Shown here: positions 1-10,000 of the stretch, piece by piece | Position numbering within the stretch: the stretch's first letter is position 1 | Layout of the letters: every line of letters begins with the position of its first letter | Assembly (NCBI GenBank): GCA_008636095.1 | Contig: VSJD01000352.1 | Coordinates: forward strand, 1-10,000 | DNA: 10,000 nucleotides | Reading direction: 5' to 3' | From: Kiritimatiellota bacterium | GTDB taxonomy: Bacteria; Verrucomicrobiota; Kiritimatiellia; JAAZAB01 | Made by a program: the position numbers and the translations under genes | The notes under the pieces: model-generated | Databases searched by the model: none | Told to the model about the DNA's origin: nothing | Seen by the model: the letters and a program-made list of their open reading frames with translations, nothing else

Positions 1-1
1 A

Positions 2-277
2 ATCGTAGCCGAGTCCTACGCGCGCATATTCTTCCGCAACGCCATTGCCACCGGTGAGCAATACCCGTGCGAGACGGCAACCAATCTGCGGGCCGTCTTC
101 CAGACCGGCGATGAAGCCGAAATCCGGCTCGACCGCGAGGAGATCGTACATGTGAAGTCCGGTAAGGTCTTTAAACTGAAATCGTTGGGCGCCGTGATGC
201 CGGTAGTCAGCGCCGGTGGACTCTTTGCCTATGCGCGCAAGACGGGCATGATAGCTTCACAGGCAGATAGGCTATAG
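2..277 (+). CDS. leuD: 3-isopropylmalate dehydratase small subunit, C-terminal part
   Basis: The last 91 codons of a gene that begins left of the window, ending at TAG 275-277. The product pairs with LeuC to isomerise 2-isopropylmalate to 3-isopropylmalate in cytoplasmic leucine biosynthesis. The visible part opens with IVAESYARIFFRNAIATG, the conserved LeuD stretch around the Ser and Arg residues that contact substrate, and continues with the usual short beta-rich tail. Small subunits of this archaeal/short type are about 160-200 residues, so roughly half is seen. A homoaconitase small subunit would look similar here, and the upstream leuC would settle it. The last residues (about QADRL) and the stop codon lie in a seven-base-period repeat tract, so the extreme C-terminus is probably repeat-derived. 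The family call is firm; exact substrate is inferred. Confidence 0.86.
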   Translation: MVAESYARIFFRNAIATGEQYPCETATNLRAVFQTGDEAEIRLDREEIVHVKSGKVFKLKSLGAVMPVVSAGGLFAYARKTGMIASQADRL

Positions 278-627: not shown

Positions 628-2586
628 ATGAACGCAACGCGGGTCATAGCCTTTGCCAATCAGAAGGGCGGCGTGGGGAAAACCACGACGGCCGTCAACC
701 TGGCCGCCTGCCTGGCCGCGCTCGGCCAGGACATGCTGGTCATTGACCTGGACCCGCAGGCCAATGCCACCAGCGCGCTGGGTATTGAAAAGCAACCGGG
801 CCACAGCGTCTATGCCACGCTCCTCGATGAGAGTACGCTCCAGGAAGAAATTATCGGCACGGTGGTGAAGCGCCTGGACCTGATCCCTTCCGAATTGGAC
901 CTGGCCGGCGCCGAGGTGGATATCGCCCGGTCCGAGCACTATCTGCACTGTTTCCAGAAGGCCTTGACCCCGCTCCTGGCCGAGAACCACTATAATTATA
1001 TTTTCATTGACTGCCCGCCCTCACTCGGCATTCTCACCAGCAATGCGCTCACGGCGGCACACGCCATGATCATTCCCGTCCAATGCGAATATCTGGCGCT
1101 GGAGGGACTGAGCATGATCACCCGGATGATCGAGCAGTTGCGTGTCGGCGGCGCCAACCCCGAGCTGATCCTGGACGGCATTGTCATGACCATGTTTGAT
1201 GGCCGCACCCGGCTGTCCCTCCAGGTCATCGAGGAAGTGAAGAAGCATTTTGGGGAGCGCGTGTACGAGACGGCCATTCCGCGTACAGTTCGCCTGAGTG
1301 AAGCCCCCAGTTTCGGCCAGCCCATCATGCTCTACGATCCGCGGGGCACGGGCGCGCTGGCGTATCGGGCGCTGGCTAAGGAGTTTCTGCGGCGGCATCG
1401 GCCTGCCCACCGACCTGTCCACCATAGCTTTAGCGACGGTGGAAACCCCAGGGGCGAAGGCGGGACGCGGGAAGCCGGACCGCAGGTGGCCATCCCGAAG
1501 GCACTCTCGTCCCGGGAACGTCTGCACCGCGCCTATTTCCAGGAAGAAATGGATCGTCCCGCTGTTTATGTCCGGACTGGATTCCCCGATCAGGATCCAT
1601 CCTATGATCCTTTGAAAGCCTGCCTGGCGGAACGGGCGGAATTGAAAGTCGGCTGGAACGGACGCCAGTTCGAAACGCCCTATCCAACGGAAACGAATCG
1701 CGAGCCGTATTCCAACGATTTTGTGCGGGTCATTACGCGCCTCACCACGCCCAAGGGGGTTCTGCAGGCCAATCGGCTGGAAAGCCTGAAAGGCCAACCT
1801 GGCATGTCTGAAACCCATTTTATCAAAACACGGGAAGACGCCGAGGCTTGGCTTTCACTGCCCCTGCCTGAAATCCAGGGTGACGTCAACTCGTTTTTCG
1901 AGATGGAGCAAAAAATCGGTGACCGGGGCATTGTGGATGTCAGTGTGGGCTCTAATCCGGCAGGCGTGGCGGTAGAGCTTATGGGATCAGACCCGTTTGC
2001 CATGTTCTCGGTTATGGATCGGGACGTGATTCATGCCCTGTGCGCGCGGCAGATGCAAATCACGCTGAACGCGGTAAAATTCCTGTTGGCTCACAAAATT
2101 GGCCCATATTTCCGTATGGACGGCGAAGAATATATTACCCCGCCACTCCATGGCCCCCGGGATTTCAACGATTTTAACGTGAAATACGATAAACCTATTA
2201 TTGATTTGATCCATGCGGCCGGGAGCCGGATGCATATCCACTGCCACGGCCGAATCAAGCAGGTGTTCAAAGAATTTCTCGACATGGGCACGGATGTCCT
2301 GCACCCCTTTGAGGCGCCGCCCATGGGAGATATCACAGCCGCCGAAGCAAAAGCTCAAGCCCGCGGCAAGCTATGTCTGGAAGGCAATATCCAAATCGCC
2401 GCCATGTATGAGCATAAGCCGGAAACCGTCCGGGCGGAAACCGAAGCGTTGATTCGGGATGCCTTTGACGACCGGCGCGGGCTGATTGTCTGCCCGACGG
2501 CCTCCCCTTATATCCGGGGCGCCGGCGGCCAATGCCTTGAGCAGTTCAAGGCCATGATTGACACGGTCGTGAACTGGAAACCGTGA
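628..2586 (+). CDS. Soj/ParA ATPase fused in frame to a URO-D/MtaA-like methyltransferase domain
   Basis: One open frame of 652 codons joins two normally separate proteins. Residues 1-257 are a full Soj-type ParA ATPase, which moves or positions DNA or other cargo by ATP-dependent dimerisation. Visible motifs are deviant Walker A KGGVGKTT (13-20), IDLDPQAN (39-46), Walker B IFIDCPPS (125-132) and the C-terminal RLSEAPSFGQP segment. Residues about 287-652 are a full-length uroporphyrinogen decarboxylase-superfamily domain of the MtaA/CmuA corrinoid-methyltransferase type, with HIHCHG (536-541) and Cys622 (VCPTASP) as likely zinc ligands. Residues 258-286 are a low-complexity linker that coincides with a quasi-palindrome. 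If the two parts are translated separately, the second could begin at GTG 1486 (weak ribosome site) or ATG 1549. No parB follows. Each domain call is firm; whether one polypeptide is made is uncertain, and a lost stop or an assembly error could give the same picture. Confidence 0.8.
   Translation: MNATRVIAFANQKGGVGKTTTAVNLAACLAALGQDMLVIDLDPQANATSALGIEKQPGHSVYATLLDESTLQEEIIGTVVKRLDLIPSELDLAGAEVDIARSEHYLHCFQKALTPLLAENHYNYIFIDCPPSLGILTSNALTAAHAMIIPVQCEYLALEGLSMITRMIEQLRVGGANPELILDGIVMTMFDGRTRLSLQVIEEVKKHFGERVYETAIPRTVRLSEAPSFGQPIMLYDPRGTGALAYRALAKEFLRRHRPAHRPVHHSFSDGGNPRGEGGTREAGPQVAIPKALSSRERLHRAYFQEEMDRPAVYVRTGFPDQDPSYDPLKACLAERAELKVGWNGRQFETPYPTETNREPYSNDFVRVITRLTTPKGVLQANRLESLKGQPGMSETHFIKTREDAEAWLSLPLPEIQGDVNSFFEMEQKIGDRGIVDVSVGSNPAGVAVELMGSDPFAMFSVMDRDVIHALCARQMQITLNAVKFLLAHKIGPYFRMDGEEYITPPLHGPRDFNDFNVKYDKPIIDLIHAAGSRMHIHCHGRIKQVFKEFLDMGTDVLHPFEAPPMGDITAAEAKAQARGKLCLEGNIQIAAMYEHKPETVRAETEALIRDAFDDRRGLIVCPTASPYIRGAGGQCLEQFKAMIDTVVNWKP
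1418..1443. repeat. 26-bp quasi-palindrome in the ParA/URO-D linker
   Basis: TCCACC (1418-1423) and GGTGGA (1438-1443) are perfect complementary ends. Over the full 26 bases, 20 positions agree with the reverse complement, several of the rest being G-T pairs in RNA. It encodes part of the linker (about PVHHSFSDGGN), just past the expected end of ParA at residue 257. Its position suggests a small intergenic palindrome that became translated when the ParA stop was lost. Confidence 0.5.
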
Positions 2587-2590
2587 AATA

Positions 2591-3151
2591 TCAGGCCAGA
2601 CCCAACTCCGCTTCCCTTTCTTTGCGCATCCGTTTAAGTTTGCCTGCCAGGGTAATTTTCTTGACCGGTGAAACGCGGTCCACGAACAGCACCCCGTTCA
2701 GGTGATCCATTTCGTGCTGGATGACGCGGGCCAGCATGCCGCAGGCGCGCAATTCCCGTTGAACACCCTGGATATCGAGGAAGGACACCGTAACTTCGGC
2801 CGCGCGGTTGACCGGCGCCCAGATTTCCGGAACACTCAAACAGCCTTCTGTCTCGCGCTGGGCCCCTTTTTTGGCCACCAGAACAGGATTCAGCATAACC
2901 AGCGGTAACGTCACATCCGGATTCAGGCGCGGGCCATCCGGCACGGCAACGTCAATGGCCGGCGGAAGATCCATAACGCAGATCTGGATGGTTTGGCCGA
3001 TTTGCTGGGCCGCCAGACCGATACCCTTCCGTTCCTTCATGATCCGGAGCATATCGCCGGAGAGGACTTTGATGGCGCCATCGATGCGGTTGACGATCTC
3101 CGCCTTCTGCCGGAGCACCGGATCGCCATAAGTACAGAATCGGTAATTCAT
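2591..3151 (-). CDS. def: Peptide deformylase
   Basis: A 186-residue metalloenzyme that removes the formyl group from the N-terminal methionine of new proteins at the ribosome exit. All three family motifs are present: GIGLAAQQIG (43-52), EGCLS (101-105, with Cys103 as metal ligand) and HEMDH (145-149, with His145 and His149 as ligands and Glu146 as the catalytic acid/base). Length is slightly above the usual 165-180, explained by a Pro/Asp-rich insert at about 62-82 (AIDVAVPDGPRLNPD) before the beta strand leading to EGCLS. The ATG has a good ribosome site, AAGGA at 3159-3163 on the complement, 7 bases away. The gene converges on the ParA fusion with only 4 bp between stops and no fmt beside it, so it is probably a single-gene transcript. 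Confidence 0.96.
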   Translation of the reverse strand: MNYRFCTYGDPVLRQKAEIVNRIDGAIKVLSGDMLRIMKERKGIGLAAQQIGQTIQICVMDLPPAIDVAVPDGPRLNPDVTLPLVMLNPVLVAKKGAQRETEGCLSVPEIWAPVNRAAEVTVSFLDIQGVQRELRACGMLARVIQHEMDHLNGVLFVDRVSPVKKITLAGKLKRMRKEREAELGLA

Positions 3152-3177
3152 GGGAAAATCCTTGACCGTTGCATTCT

Positions 3178-3206
3178 ACTATAATGGGCCTGCCGACGGG
3201 GTGCAA
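3178..3206 (-). promoter_or_regulatory. sigma70-type promoter of def
   Basis: Read on the minus strand, TTGCAC (complement of 3201-3206) and TATAGT (complement of 3178-3183) are separated by exactly 17 bp. Both hexamers are close to consensus. Transcription would begin near 3171, giving a leader of about 20 bases that still includes the AAGGA ribosome site at 3159-3163. This is the best promoter in the window. Confidence 0.65.
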
Positions 3207-3270
3207 CCCAAAACCGATCCGCCGTCCGCGCTCATAAATTATCATTATGGCCTTCCGTCATCAGCGAACA

Positions 3271-8522: not shown

Positions 8523-8615
8523 TTAATGAACACAATATGCGAATCCCGTTTATATTTAACTGTCGCATTACAATTTGTAAAAATATGTGTTTTTAGCGCG
8601 CCTATTGTTCATTAA
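8523..8615. promoter_or_regulatory. Two inverted 10-bp half-sites 83 bp apart
   Basis: TTAATGAACA at 8523-8532 and TGTTCATTAA at 8606-8615 are exact reverse complements. The match extends inward loosely (both continue to an ATA-containing segment: ACAATA and, on the complement, ATAGG). Their centres are 83 bp apart, close to eight helical turns, so proteins bound at both would face the same side. The right copy ends 51 bases before the oxidoreductase ATG. A looping or dimeric regulator such as an AraC- or LacI-type protein is possible; none is encoded here. Confidence 0.4.
8568..8580. promoter_or_regulatory. 13-bp perfect dyad TTACAA-T-TTGTAA
   Basis: Six-base arms at 8568-8573 and 8575-8580 flank a single T. 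The dyad sits near the midpoint of the two TTAATGAACA half-sites. It resembles an operator for a small homodimeric repressor, but AT-rich DNA yields such dyads fairly easily. Confidence 0.3.
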
Positions 8616-8666
8616 ACCCGATAGTTTTACCCACAATTTCAAATTATGCGGAAGACCAGGAATTAT

Positions 8667-10000
8667 ATGAAACAAATTATTGTCCCATCGGAAAAAGTGC
8701 CCATAATCAATGAGGTGGATATTTGCGTTGTGGGCGGAAGCTGCACCGGAGTGTTTGCGGCGGTCCGCGCGGCCAGGCTCGGCGCAAAAGTCGTAATCGT
8801 TGAAAAGCAGAATCGGTTCGGCGGGGTCGCCACCAACGGCCTGGTTCACATGTGGCACAGCATTTATGACACGGACTTTAATGAACAGATCATCGGCGGC
8901 CTGACTTATGAAGTCATGGAACGGCTGGAAAAAAGAAACGCGATAAGCCAATTTAAAAATTCCAAAACCTACGCTATCCGGCTGAATTCGGAAGAATTGA
9001 CCATTGAGCTGGATGAACTCGTGCTTGAAGCAAAAATCAAGCCTTACCTCCACTCTTTCTTTTCGGCGCCGGTCATTGAAAATGGCCGCGTTACTGCGGT
9101 CATTATTCAGAACAAATCCGGCCGGGGCGCGGTCAAAGCCAAAATGTTCATTGACGCCACCGGCGACGCCGATCTGTGTCACCTGGCGGGATTGCCGACA
9201 TATACACCGGCTCACATCCAGCCCCCGACCACCTGCGCAAGATTCGCCAACTGGAACGTTAAACTTGATACAAACAAGCTGATTATGAAACACGCTGCAG
9301 AATTCGATCTGCCGGAAGGTTATATGTGGGGCGCCCCCATTCCACCGGACAATGATGTTTTCATGCTGTCCGGCACGCGCGTCGCCGGAAAAAATCCCGC
9401 GGATGGAGAACAATTGACCTTCTGCGAGATGGAAGGACGGCGCCAGGTCAGGGCGATCATGGATATCTGGCGAAAATACGTGAAAGGCAAAGGCATCACG
9501 CTGCATGCTCTGCCGTCCCAAATCGGCATCCGGGAAAGCAGGCACATCAAGGGAATATGCCGGATCGCCGGGAATGATCTGCTTTATGGAAAGAAATTTA
9601 GCGATGCAATTGCCAACGGAACTTATCCGGTGGATATTCATCATCAGTACAAACCGGGCATAACGTTCAAGGAACTGAACGGAACTCAGCATTATTGCCG
9701 GCCAGGCAAAGCGGCCGTTGTCAGCCGCTGGCGCAAAAAAACGGCGGATTGCCCGAAATATTATCAGATACCTCTGCGCTCTTTGATCCCGCAAAATTCC
9801 AAAAACGTCATTGCCGCCGGCCGCATGCTGGATGCCGACCGGGAAGCGTTCGGCGCTGTCAGGGTAATGGTCAACCTCAACCAGACCGGCGAAGCCGCCG
9901 GAGTCGCCGCCTGGCACGCGCTGATTTCAGGCCTTGAGATTGCGCAAGTCAATCCGCGGAATGTCAGGAAAACGCTGGCCGCCGGCGGATCGCGCATGCT
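8667..10000 (+). CDS. FAD-dependent oxidoreductase (FAD_oxidored family), 3' end outside the window
   Basis: 444 complete codons of a flavoprotein that continues past the right edge. Near the N-terminus is the dinucleotide-binding fold: VDICVVGGSCTGVFAAVRAA (GGxxxG form) then VVIVEKQNRFGGVATNG, where the Glu would hold the adenosine ribose. FIDATGDADLCHLAG is the second FAD motif, and NVIAAGRMLDADREAFGAVRVM near the right end is the C-terminal FAD-contact segment of this family. ATG 8667 is chosen for AGGA at 8658-8661; in-frame ATG 8646 lacks a ribosome site. The substrate is not evident: members occur beside polysaccharide and glycoside catabolism genes in PVC bacteria, and many are unassigned. 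Separate control from the preceding genes is suggested by the AT-rich gap with dyad sites. There is no signal peptide; it is probably cytoplasmic. Confidence 0.88.
   Translation, partial: MKQIIVPSEKVPIINEVDICVVGGSCTGVFAAVRAARLGAKVVIVEKQNRFGGVATNGLVHMWHSIYDTDFNEQIIGGLTYEVMERLEKRNAISQFKNSKTYAIRLNSEELTIELDELVLEAKIKPYLHSFFSAPVIENGRVTAVIIQNKSGRGAVKAKMFIDATGDADLCHLAGLPTYTPAHIQPPTTCARFANWNVKLDTNKLIMKHAAEFDLPEGYMWGAPIPPDNDVFMLSGTRVAGKNPADGEQLTFCEMEGRRQVRAIMDIWRKYVKGKGITLHALPSQIGIRESRHIKGICRIAGNDLLYGKKFSDAIANGTYPVDIHHQYKPGITFKELNGTQHYCRPGKAAVVSRWRKKTADCPKYYQIPLRSLIPQNSKNVIAAGRMLDADREAFGAVRVMVNLNQTGEAAGVAAWHALISGLEIAQVNPRNVRKTLAAGGSRM

Follow-up and report, generated by a model that had tools for sequence, protein, structure and literature searches.

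The window, by which is meant the whole 10,000-nt stretch of DNA that was analysed, carries near its start an open reading frame on the forward strand (positions 628-2586) that runs from ATG to TGA with no internal stop and encodes 652 amino acids. Pfam places two domains on this product, AAA_31 at residues 4-172 (1.4e-55) and URO-D at residues 444-623 (4.6e-11), and a single chain of about 70-kDa containing both domains is predicted. The features of the locus are as follows.

1..277, forward strand: 3' end of leuD, truncated by the contig end and read to its stop (58% identity to the LeuD of locus L017)
628..1398, forward strand: Soj/ParA ATPase domain, residues 1-257 (AAA_31; 251.7 bits against the ParA 8ray)
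1396..1476, forward strand: dispersed DNA repeat occupying most of the linker (the genome has 23 matches, this site among them)
1399..1503, forward strand: inter-domain linker, residues 258-292 (pLDDT <50 at residues 260-289; frame kept in six genomes)
1504..2586, forward strand: URO-D/MtaA-fold domain, residues 293-652, and the stop codon TGA (Pfam URO-D; pLDDT 90.7; Foldseek)
2233..2247, forward strand: H536-I-H538-C-H540, at the place of the MtaA HxCG motif (alignment via the paralogue L007 to 4ay7)
2591..3151, reverse strand: def, encoding peptide deformylase, in convergent orientation to the fusion gene (Pfam Pep_deformylase, 3.3e-45)

Farther along the window, an open frame of 449 amino acids lies on the reverse strand at 8568-9917; it has no Pfam match at 1e-5 and is perhaps merely antisense.

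The original prediction, that no stop separates the ParA and URO-D parts, holds for the frame itself and for its relatives. The same fused gene is present in six of the ten genomes of the order (G009, G008, G003, G005, G001 and G000, the genome of the window), and both Pfam domains are found in 23 of the 120 best of 7949 homologue matches (clusters P0001-P0022 and P0024), at 57-82% identity and lengths of 538-659 amino acids. The gene order around the fusion is likewise kept among the relatives' assemblies, with leuD before parA as a shared arrangement. The fused gene of G008 is identical over the gene to the MAG record JAPLSY010000020.1 (L015), as is G002, over the genes compared, to JACQHI010000413.1. 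An assembly join, a sequencing error or a stop codon lost in this strain only had been raised as duller accounts, and the assembly is indeed fragmented (357 contigs), with a linker that is a dispersed repeat and hence a place prone to misjoining. Against this stand the fused genes of the six genomes, the MAG record among them, and of the 23 database clusters, and the conserved surroundings, so that such an artefact is rejected. Judged from these sequences, the ParA-URO-D fusion is genuine, since independent relatives carry the same fused gene. Nor was a stop codon followed by two separate genes, which was expected if the fusion were spurious, found in the ten genomes; the relatives with ParA alone have no URO-D relative at 1e-60.

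Upstream of parA, leuD is found in all six fused genomes and in three genomes where ParA stands alone (G006, G004 and G002), and leuC is present too wherever the contig reaches. Downstream, def follows in five of the six fused genomes as well as in G006 and G004; in G003 no def turned up within the 7 kb read 3' of the fusion. In G006 the def match lies about 80 nt from the stop of ParA, and the URO-D part is thus cleanly absent there. Among 41 parA loci of relatives, chosen by hand and mostly with short flanks, leuC-leuD precedes parA in 11 and a convergent def follows it in 13. Rather than adjoining parB, parA here comes after leuD. The absence of a neighbouring parB was correctly predicted, yet it is ordinary and does not set the fusion apart, because only one of these 41 loci has parB in a scan with the ParB of this genome (many flanks being short).

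The ParA half was also predicted to be complete over residues 1-257 with its nucleotide motifs intact, and K13, K18, D40, D42 and N46 are all present. By profile, sequence and structure comparison the ParA fold is full-length, with the deviant Walker A and the catalytic aspartates, and it matches 8ray over residues 4-256 and 1WCV at 215 bits. K13, K18, D40, D42, N46, Y62 and R222 do not vary across 21 aligned fused proteins. L133 is kept in 20 of them, and I135 in 19, with V in the other 2; at D91, 19 proteins have D and 2 have N, and at D98, 14 have D and 7 have E. Residues of M. xanthus ParA for catalysis, ParB contact and DNA binding are reported in PMC12462528, and residues of the fused protein were mapped to those positions via the 8ray alignment. 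The mapped positions D42, Y62, D91, D98, L133, I135 and R222 are kept or conservatively changed relative to those given there, and E82 of M. xanthus ParA, which is A63 in the fused protein, is a changed one. In the model of the ParA half, the segment 222-236 around R222 has pLDDT <50. The top Foldseek row for the ParA half (model m37b7a3d489fe) is 9a6n, a model of a Soj-NrdR complex, which links Soj to a regulator of nucleotide metabolism and is perhaps of interest for the idea, discussed below, that the two halves are coupled.

At E<=1e-6, nine of the ten genomes yield a single Soj-type ParA, and the tenth, G007 (70% complete), yields none. In the genome of the window, the remaining AAA_31 matches are weak, at 24-38 bits. 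A ParB_N protein is present in nine of the ten genomes, including all six with the fusion, and a second, weaker one in G001, G003 and G006. The genome of the window has one, on contig C70, and in each of the six fused genomes ParB is on a contig other than that of parA. The textbook parS site is a 16-mer. Allowing one mismatch at most, this 16-mer, the only form of parS searched for, occurs at two places among the ten genomes, both in G009; the lineage may use a different parS. All nine best ParBs have LGRGL near the N-terminus (the N-terminal ParB peptide of L009 is MASKHGLGRGLSALINEK), and the ParA-binding motif of ParB is given as LG-R/K-GL in PMC12704722.

In the second half of the protein, PF01208 scores 42.8 bits against a curated cut-off of 23.9. 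No URO-D chain came up when the domain sequence was searched against solved structures, and folds were therefore compared. Since the best 50 Foldseek rows for the whole fused model were all ParA/MinD-like, the URO-D domain was modelled alone, which gave a pLDDT of 90.7 and Foldseek matches to 1j93 (1.4e-11) and 4ay7 (2.8e-10); the structure jobs used alignments of 21 rows (A3) and 24 rows (A2). The domain is complete, as had been proposed, with its start at about residue 293 instead of 287, stand-alone relatives beginning at the equivalent of about 293. Its description as MtaA/URO-D-like stands in part: the URO-D fold is there, whereas the likeness to MtaA is only distant. Identity as HemE was rejected (TIGR01464, 13.6 bits against a cut-off of 302.95), as was identity as MtaA or CmuA (NCBIfam models, 21.2-30.1 bits against cut-offs of 235.4-400). 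His-x-Cys is part of the zinc site of MtaA, and at this place, in the alignment via L007 to 4ay7, the fused domain has HxH; of 21 aligned fused proteins, all keep H538 and 19 keep H540.

The conservation of the domain was gauged on the 77 columns in which identity among 101 stand-alone relatives (94 plus seven from genomes) reaches 97% or more, a choice that favours stand-alone over fused rows. The domain of the window keeps 76 of them. Among 30 fused rows, 24 keep at least 72 of the 77, P0021, G001 and P0019 keep 71, P0024 keeps 70, P0022 keeps 64 and P0059 keeps 42. Because most fused rows retain the conserved residues, the fused domain is probably useful, and an active enzyme, in most of the fused lineages seen. 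H540 has been lost in three lineages, G001/P0019, P0022 and P0059, one of them with a wrecked domain. P0059, at 43% identity over its whole length, has a decayed second part that is without a Pfam URO-D match and still in frame, and is by all appearance a decaying passenger. Both halves are under purifying selection, with omega of 0.07-0.12 for the ParA half (10 pairs) and of 0.10-0.16 for the URO-D half (8 of 10 pairs, the other two being without dS), in a comparison that leaves out G001 and in which distant pairs are near saturation.

Methyl-transfer chemistry is likely available in the lineage. A B12-binding corrinoid protein is encoded in all ten genomes, with or without the fusion, and MttB-family proteins in eight of the ten. 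The presence of such partners is thus uninformative for the fused domain, which nothing here ties to this chemistry; as a marker of its function the corrinoid protein was dismissed, being found in ten of ten genomes whatever their ParA. The corrinoid protein of G009 (L193, 1414-2133) is nearest to MtgC/MtbC models while falling under every NCBIfam cut-off, and is followed by a pterin-binding protein at 2243-3223; such a corrinoid and pterin-binding pair occurs in five of 11 loci, within short flanks. By eye, an AraC-like frame lies on the other side of the corrinoid protein in L193.

Between the two domains lies a linker that is presumably disordered over residues 258-292, to judge from the fused model (overall pTM 0.58). 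The linkers of the six fused genomes are 105, 168, 54, 51, 69 and 183 nt long, all multiples of three and free of stops. Most of the window's linker is the repeat at 1396-1476, whose matches in the genome are 75-100% identical and many of them partial (40 of 64 candidates were scored). The reading of the linker as a special hairpin was ruled out by comparison with shuffled sequences, than which the repeat folds no better (z -0.47). The same GC-rich repeat (loci L168-L176) also lies inside other open frames, for instance one on C55 that by eye is GrpE-like, and other repeat-like stretches are seen, again by eye, in the linkers of G008 and G009; in-frame invasion by repeats may be common in the lineage. 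As for the origin of the linker, the tails of 32 unfused ParAs (29 from the class and 3 from the phylum) are 3-75 amino acids long and the longer ones are of low complexity, a hint which suggests that the linker derives from such a low-complexity tail. At the same 32 loci no other large C-terminal domain was found on ParA; long frames that had been considered as such proved to be upstream extensions.

One frame need not mean one protein, and the URO-D part could also, or solely, arise by initiation inside the frame (at GTG 1486 or at an ATG further on) or by cleavage. The GTG at 1486, to which the original prediction pointed, is present and sits in the natural start region of stand-alone URO-D relatives; P0023, which has URO-D alone, begins at this very place, as well. 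At the corresponding place there is a GTG in G009 and G003 and, seven codons later, an ATG in G001, and an ATG lies some 15 codons inside the domain in four of the six fused genomes. GTG 1486 is not conserved across the fused genomes, however, and as the sole start of the second domain it was discarded: in G005 the first in-frame ATG, GTG or TTG comes only 46 residues into the URO-D domain, and the linker of G008 offers only TTGs. Moreover, six linkers of differing length are all in frame, which separate translation would not need. The Shine-Dalgarno-like letters 5' of GTG 1486 are weak by eye and count for little, since those at the ParA start are equally weak. Two proteins from this frame are, on balance, quite improbable.

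The distribution of the fusion is narrow. Three of the ten genomes of the order (G006, G002 and G004) have ParA alone, and no URO-D relative was found elsewhere in them at 1e-60 with all candidates scored (completeness 85, 59 and 68%, respectively). In a search of the class with at most five candidates scored per genome, URO-D matches at 1e-80 were found in 11 of 345 genomes, six of them with the fusion and five with frames of 334-388 amino acids. In a phylum sample of 387 genomes, drawn from a larger group and with at most three candidates scored per genome, every match listed from outside the family spans just one of the two domains. Hence no fused gene was seen outside the family in the 345 genomes of the class or, among the matches listed, in the 387 of the phylum.

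In the ParA tree, from which P0016, P0020 and P0024 are absent, 26 fused rows together with P0059, G002, G004, G006 and P0088 form one clade (97/82), within which the fused label needs five changes, at least four going by the starred branches. The URO-D tree, built without P0005, P0016 and P0088, includes 47 of the 94 stand-alone proteins of P0025-P0120 together with P0023 and seven from genomes. Here all fused rows but P0021 fall on the same side of a branch (89/96); P0021 pairs on long branches with the stand-alone protein of G118, and P0023, listed as URO-D alone, sits among the fused proteins. Three changes of the label are needed in this tree, whose bootstrap has not settled. Sub-groups are largely alike in the two trees, which is what a single fused gene passed on vertically would produce; P0021 is again the exception. 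One old fusion followed by later losses fits these trees. With five label changes and a fused group that is undivided in 0% of 200 bootstrap trees, for ParA and URO-D alike, several independent gains of the fusion are also conceivable. Two database proteins near the window sequence, P0088 (a ParA of 398 amino acids with a long, repeat-rich tail) and P0023, may represent a split, two-gene form of the fusion.

The interpretation favoured here, with a probability of roughly 0.6, is that the chromosomal ParA of this lineage carries a URO-D-fold enzyme as a C-terminal passenger, which has been lost or has decayed several times. In an ancestor, a gene of the URO-D family would have come to sit in the parA-def interval, oriented like parA, and would have fused in frame with a low-complexity ParA tail. 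The ParA half would cycle as in other ParABS systems, with ATP-bound dimers on the nucleoid and release triggered by ParB, and the tethered enzyme would be carried on a flexible linker that repeats have invaded. The enzyme is probably active in the majority of the fused lineages seen, in a metal-dependent methyl transfer or a related reaction of the MtaA/URO-D fold, and it would be dispensable for ParA function. Loss of the domain in G006, G004 and G002 and its decay in P0059, P0022 and G001/P0019 argue that ParA does not need it, and the losses in relatives, taken with the loss of H540 in three lineages, make the enzyme a probable passenger.

The persistence of the domain could instead reflect coupling. 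The URO-D part might sense or handle a methylated or tetrapyrrole-like metabolite, or pair with itself, and so set the ATP and dimer cycle of ParA; alternatively, ParA might place the enzyme on the nucleoid, the original prediction having pointed to localisation of a methyl-transfer complex. In keeping with this, the fusion and most of the conserved columns have long been kept, both halves are under selection and the partner is the only Soj-type ParA found. Some bearing on the nucleoid comes from G118, of another family, where a stand-alone URO-D relative (L149, 8450-9565) shares one base with the start of an HU-like DNA-binding gene (9565-10455, PF00216). This is a single case and a hint at most: G118 is one of six stand-alone loci listed, the neighbours at these six are mostly catabolic-looking (oxidoreductases and isomerases of TIM-barrel type, for example), and the stand-alone genes of G401 and G402 overlap a TIM-barrel gene in like manner. 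The three clade relatives with ParA alone, the conserved residues lost in P0059, P0022 and G001/P0019, and the variable length and content of the linker all speak against coupling, as does the model, whose pTM of 0.58 and low linker pLDDT give no sign of a fixed contact. Coupling of this sort is accordingly a tentative and somewhat doubtful alternative. Its strongest version, in which the URO-D domain gates, or is placed by, the only Soj-type ParA and so wires methyl-transfer or metabolic state into segregation as a metabolic checkpoint on ParABS, is unlikely.

The fused protein resembles M. xanthus ParA (8RAY) and T. thermophilus Soj (1WCV) in its full-length ParA match, and M. xanthus ParA in the key mapped residues. 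It differs from these chromosomal Soj/ParA proteins in having a 360-residue enzyme domain after the C-terminal helix, and in a gene without an adjoining parB; none of the solved Soj/ParA relatives found, with chains of 255-276 residues, has a domain of this kind. Compared with HemE and MtaA, the fused domain is joined to ParA and is only 14-15% identical, far under the curated cut-offs, with HxH where MtaA has HxC. Its closest counterparts are stand-alone URO-D-family proteins, which are 59-66% identical to it across the domain, have its conserved columns and are encoded by separate genes of about 360 amino acids, whereas the fused domain is part of the ParA gene. Source names of these relatives include Verrucomicrobiia, Planctomycetota, Poribacteria and Anaerolineae.

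A precedent in design is the ParB-CTPase fold, which is found joined to foreign enzymatic domains (PMC12704722). Both cases combine the fold of a partition protein with a foreign enzymatic domain, the difference being that those fusions use the ParB fold, and the one described here the sole Soj-type ParA that the genome was found to encode; the main text of PMC12704722 does not contain the word uroporphyrinogen. No report of a ParA-URO-D architecture was found in the open-access literature searched, in line with the original prediction, for which no established family of this kind was known. Both domains are known, and it is their combination in the lineage's only detected Soj-type ParA that is new.

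That the only Soj-type ParA detected in the lineage has carried a 40-kDa enzyme long enough for the fused proteins to diverge to 57% identity shows that the C-terminus of ParA tolerates a large passenger. With the ParA-only and decayed relatives as built-in controls, the lineage offers a natural experiment on whether a metabolic enzyme can be borne by ParA on the nucleoid or can regulate it.
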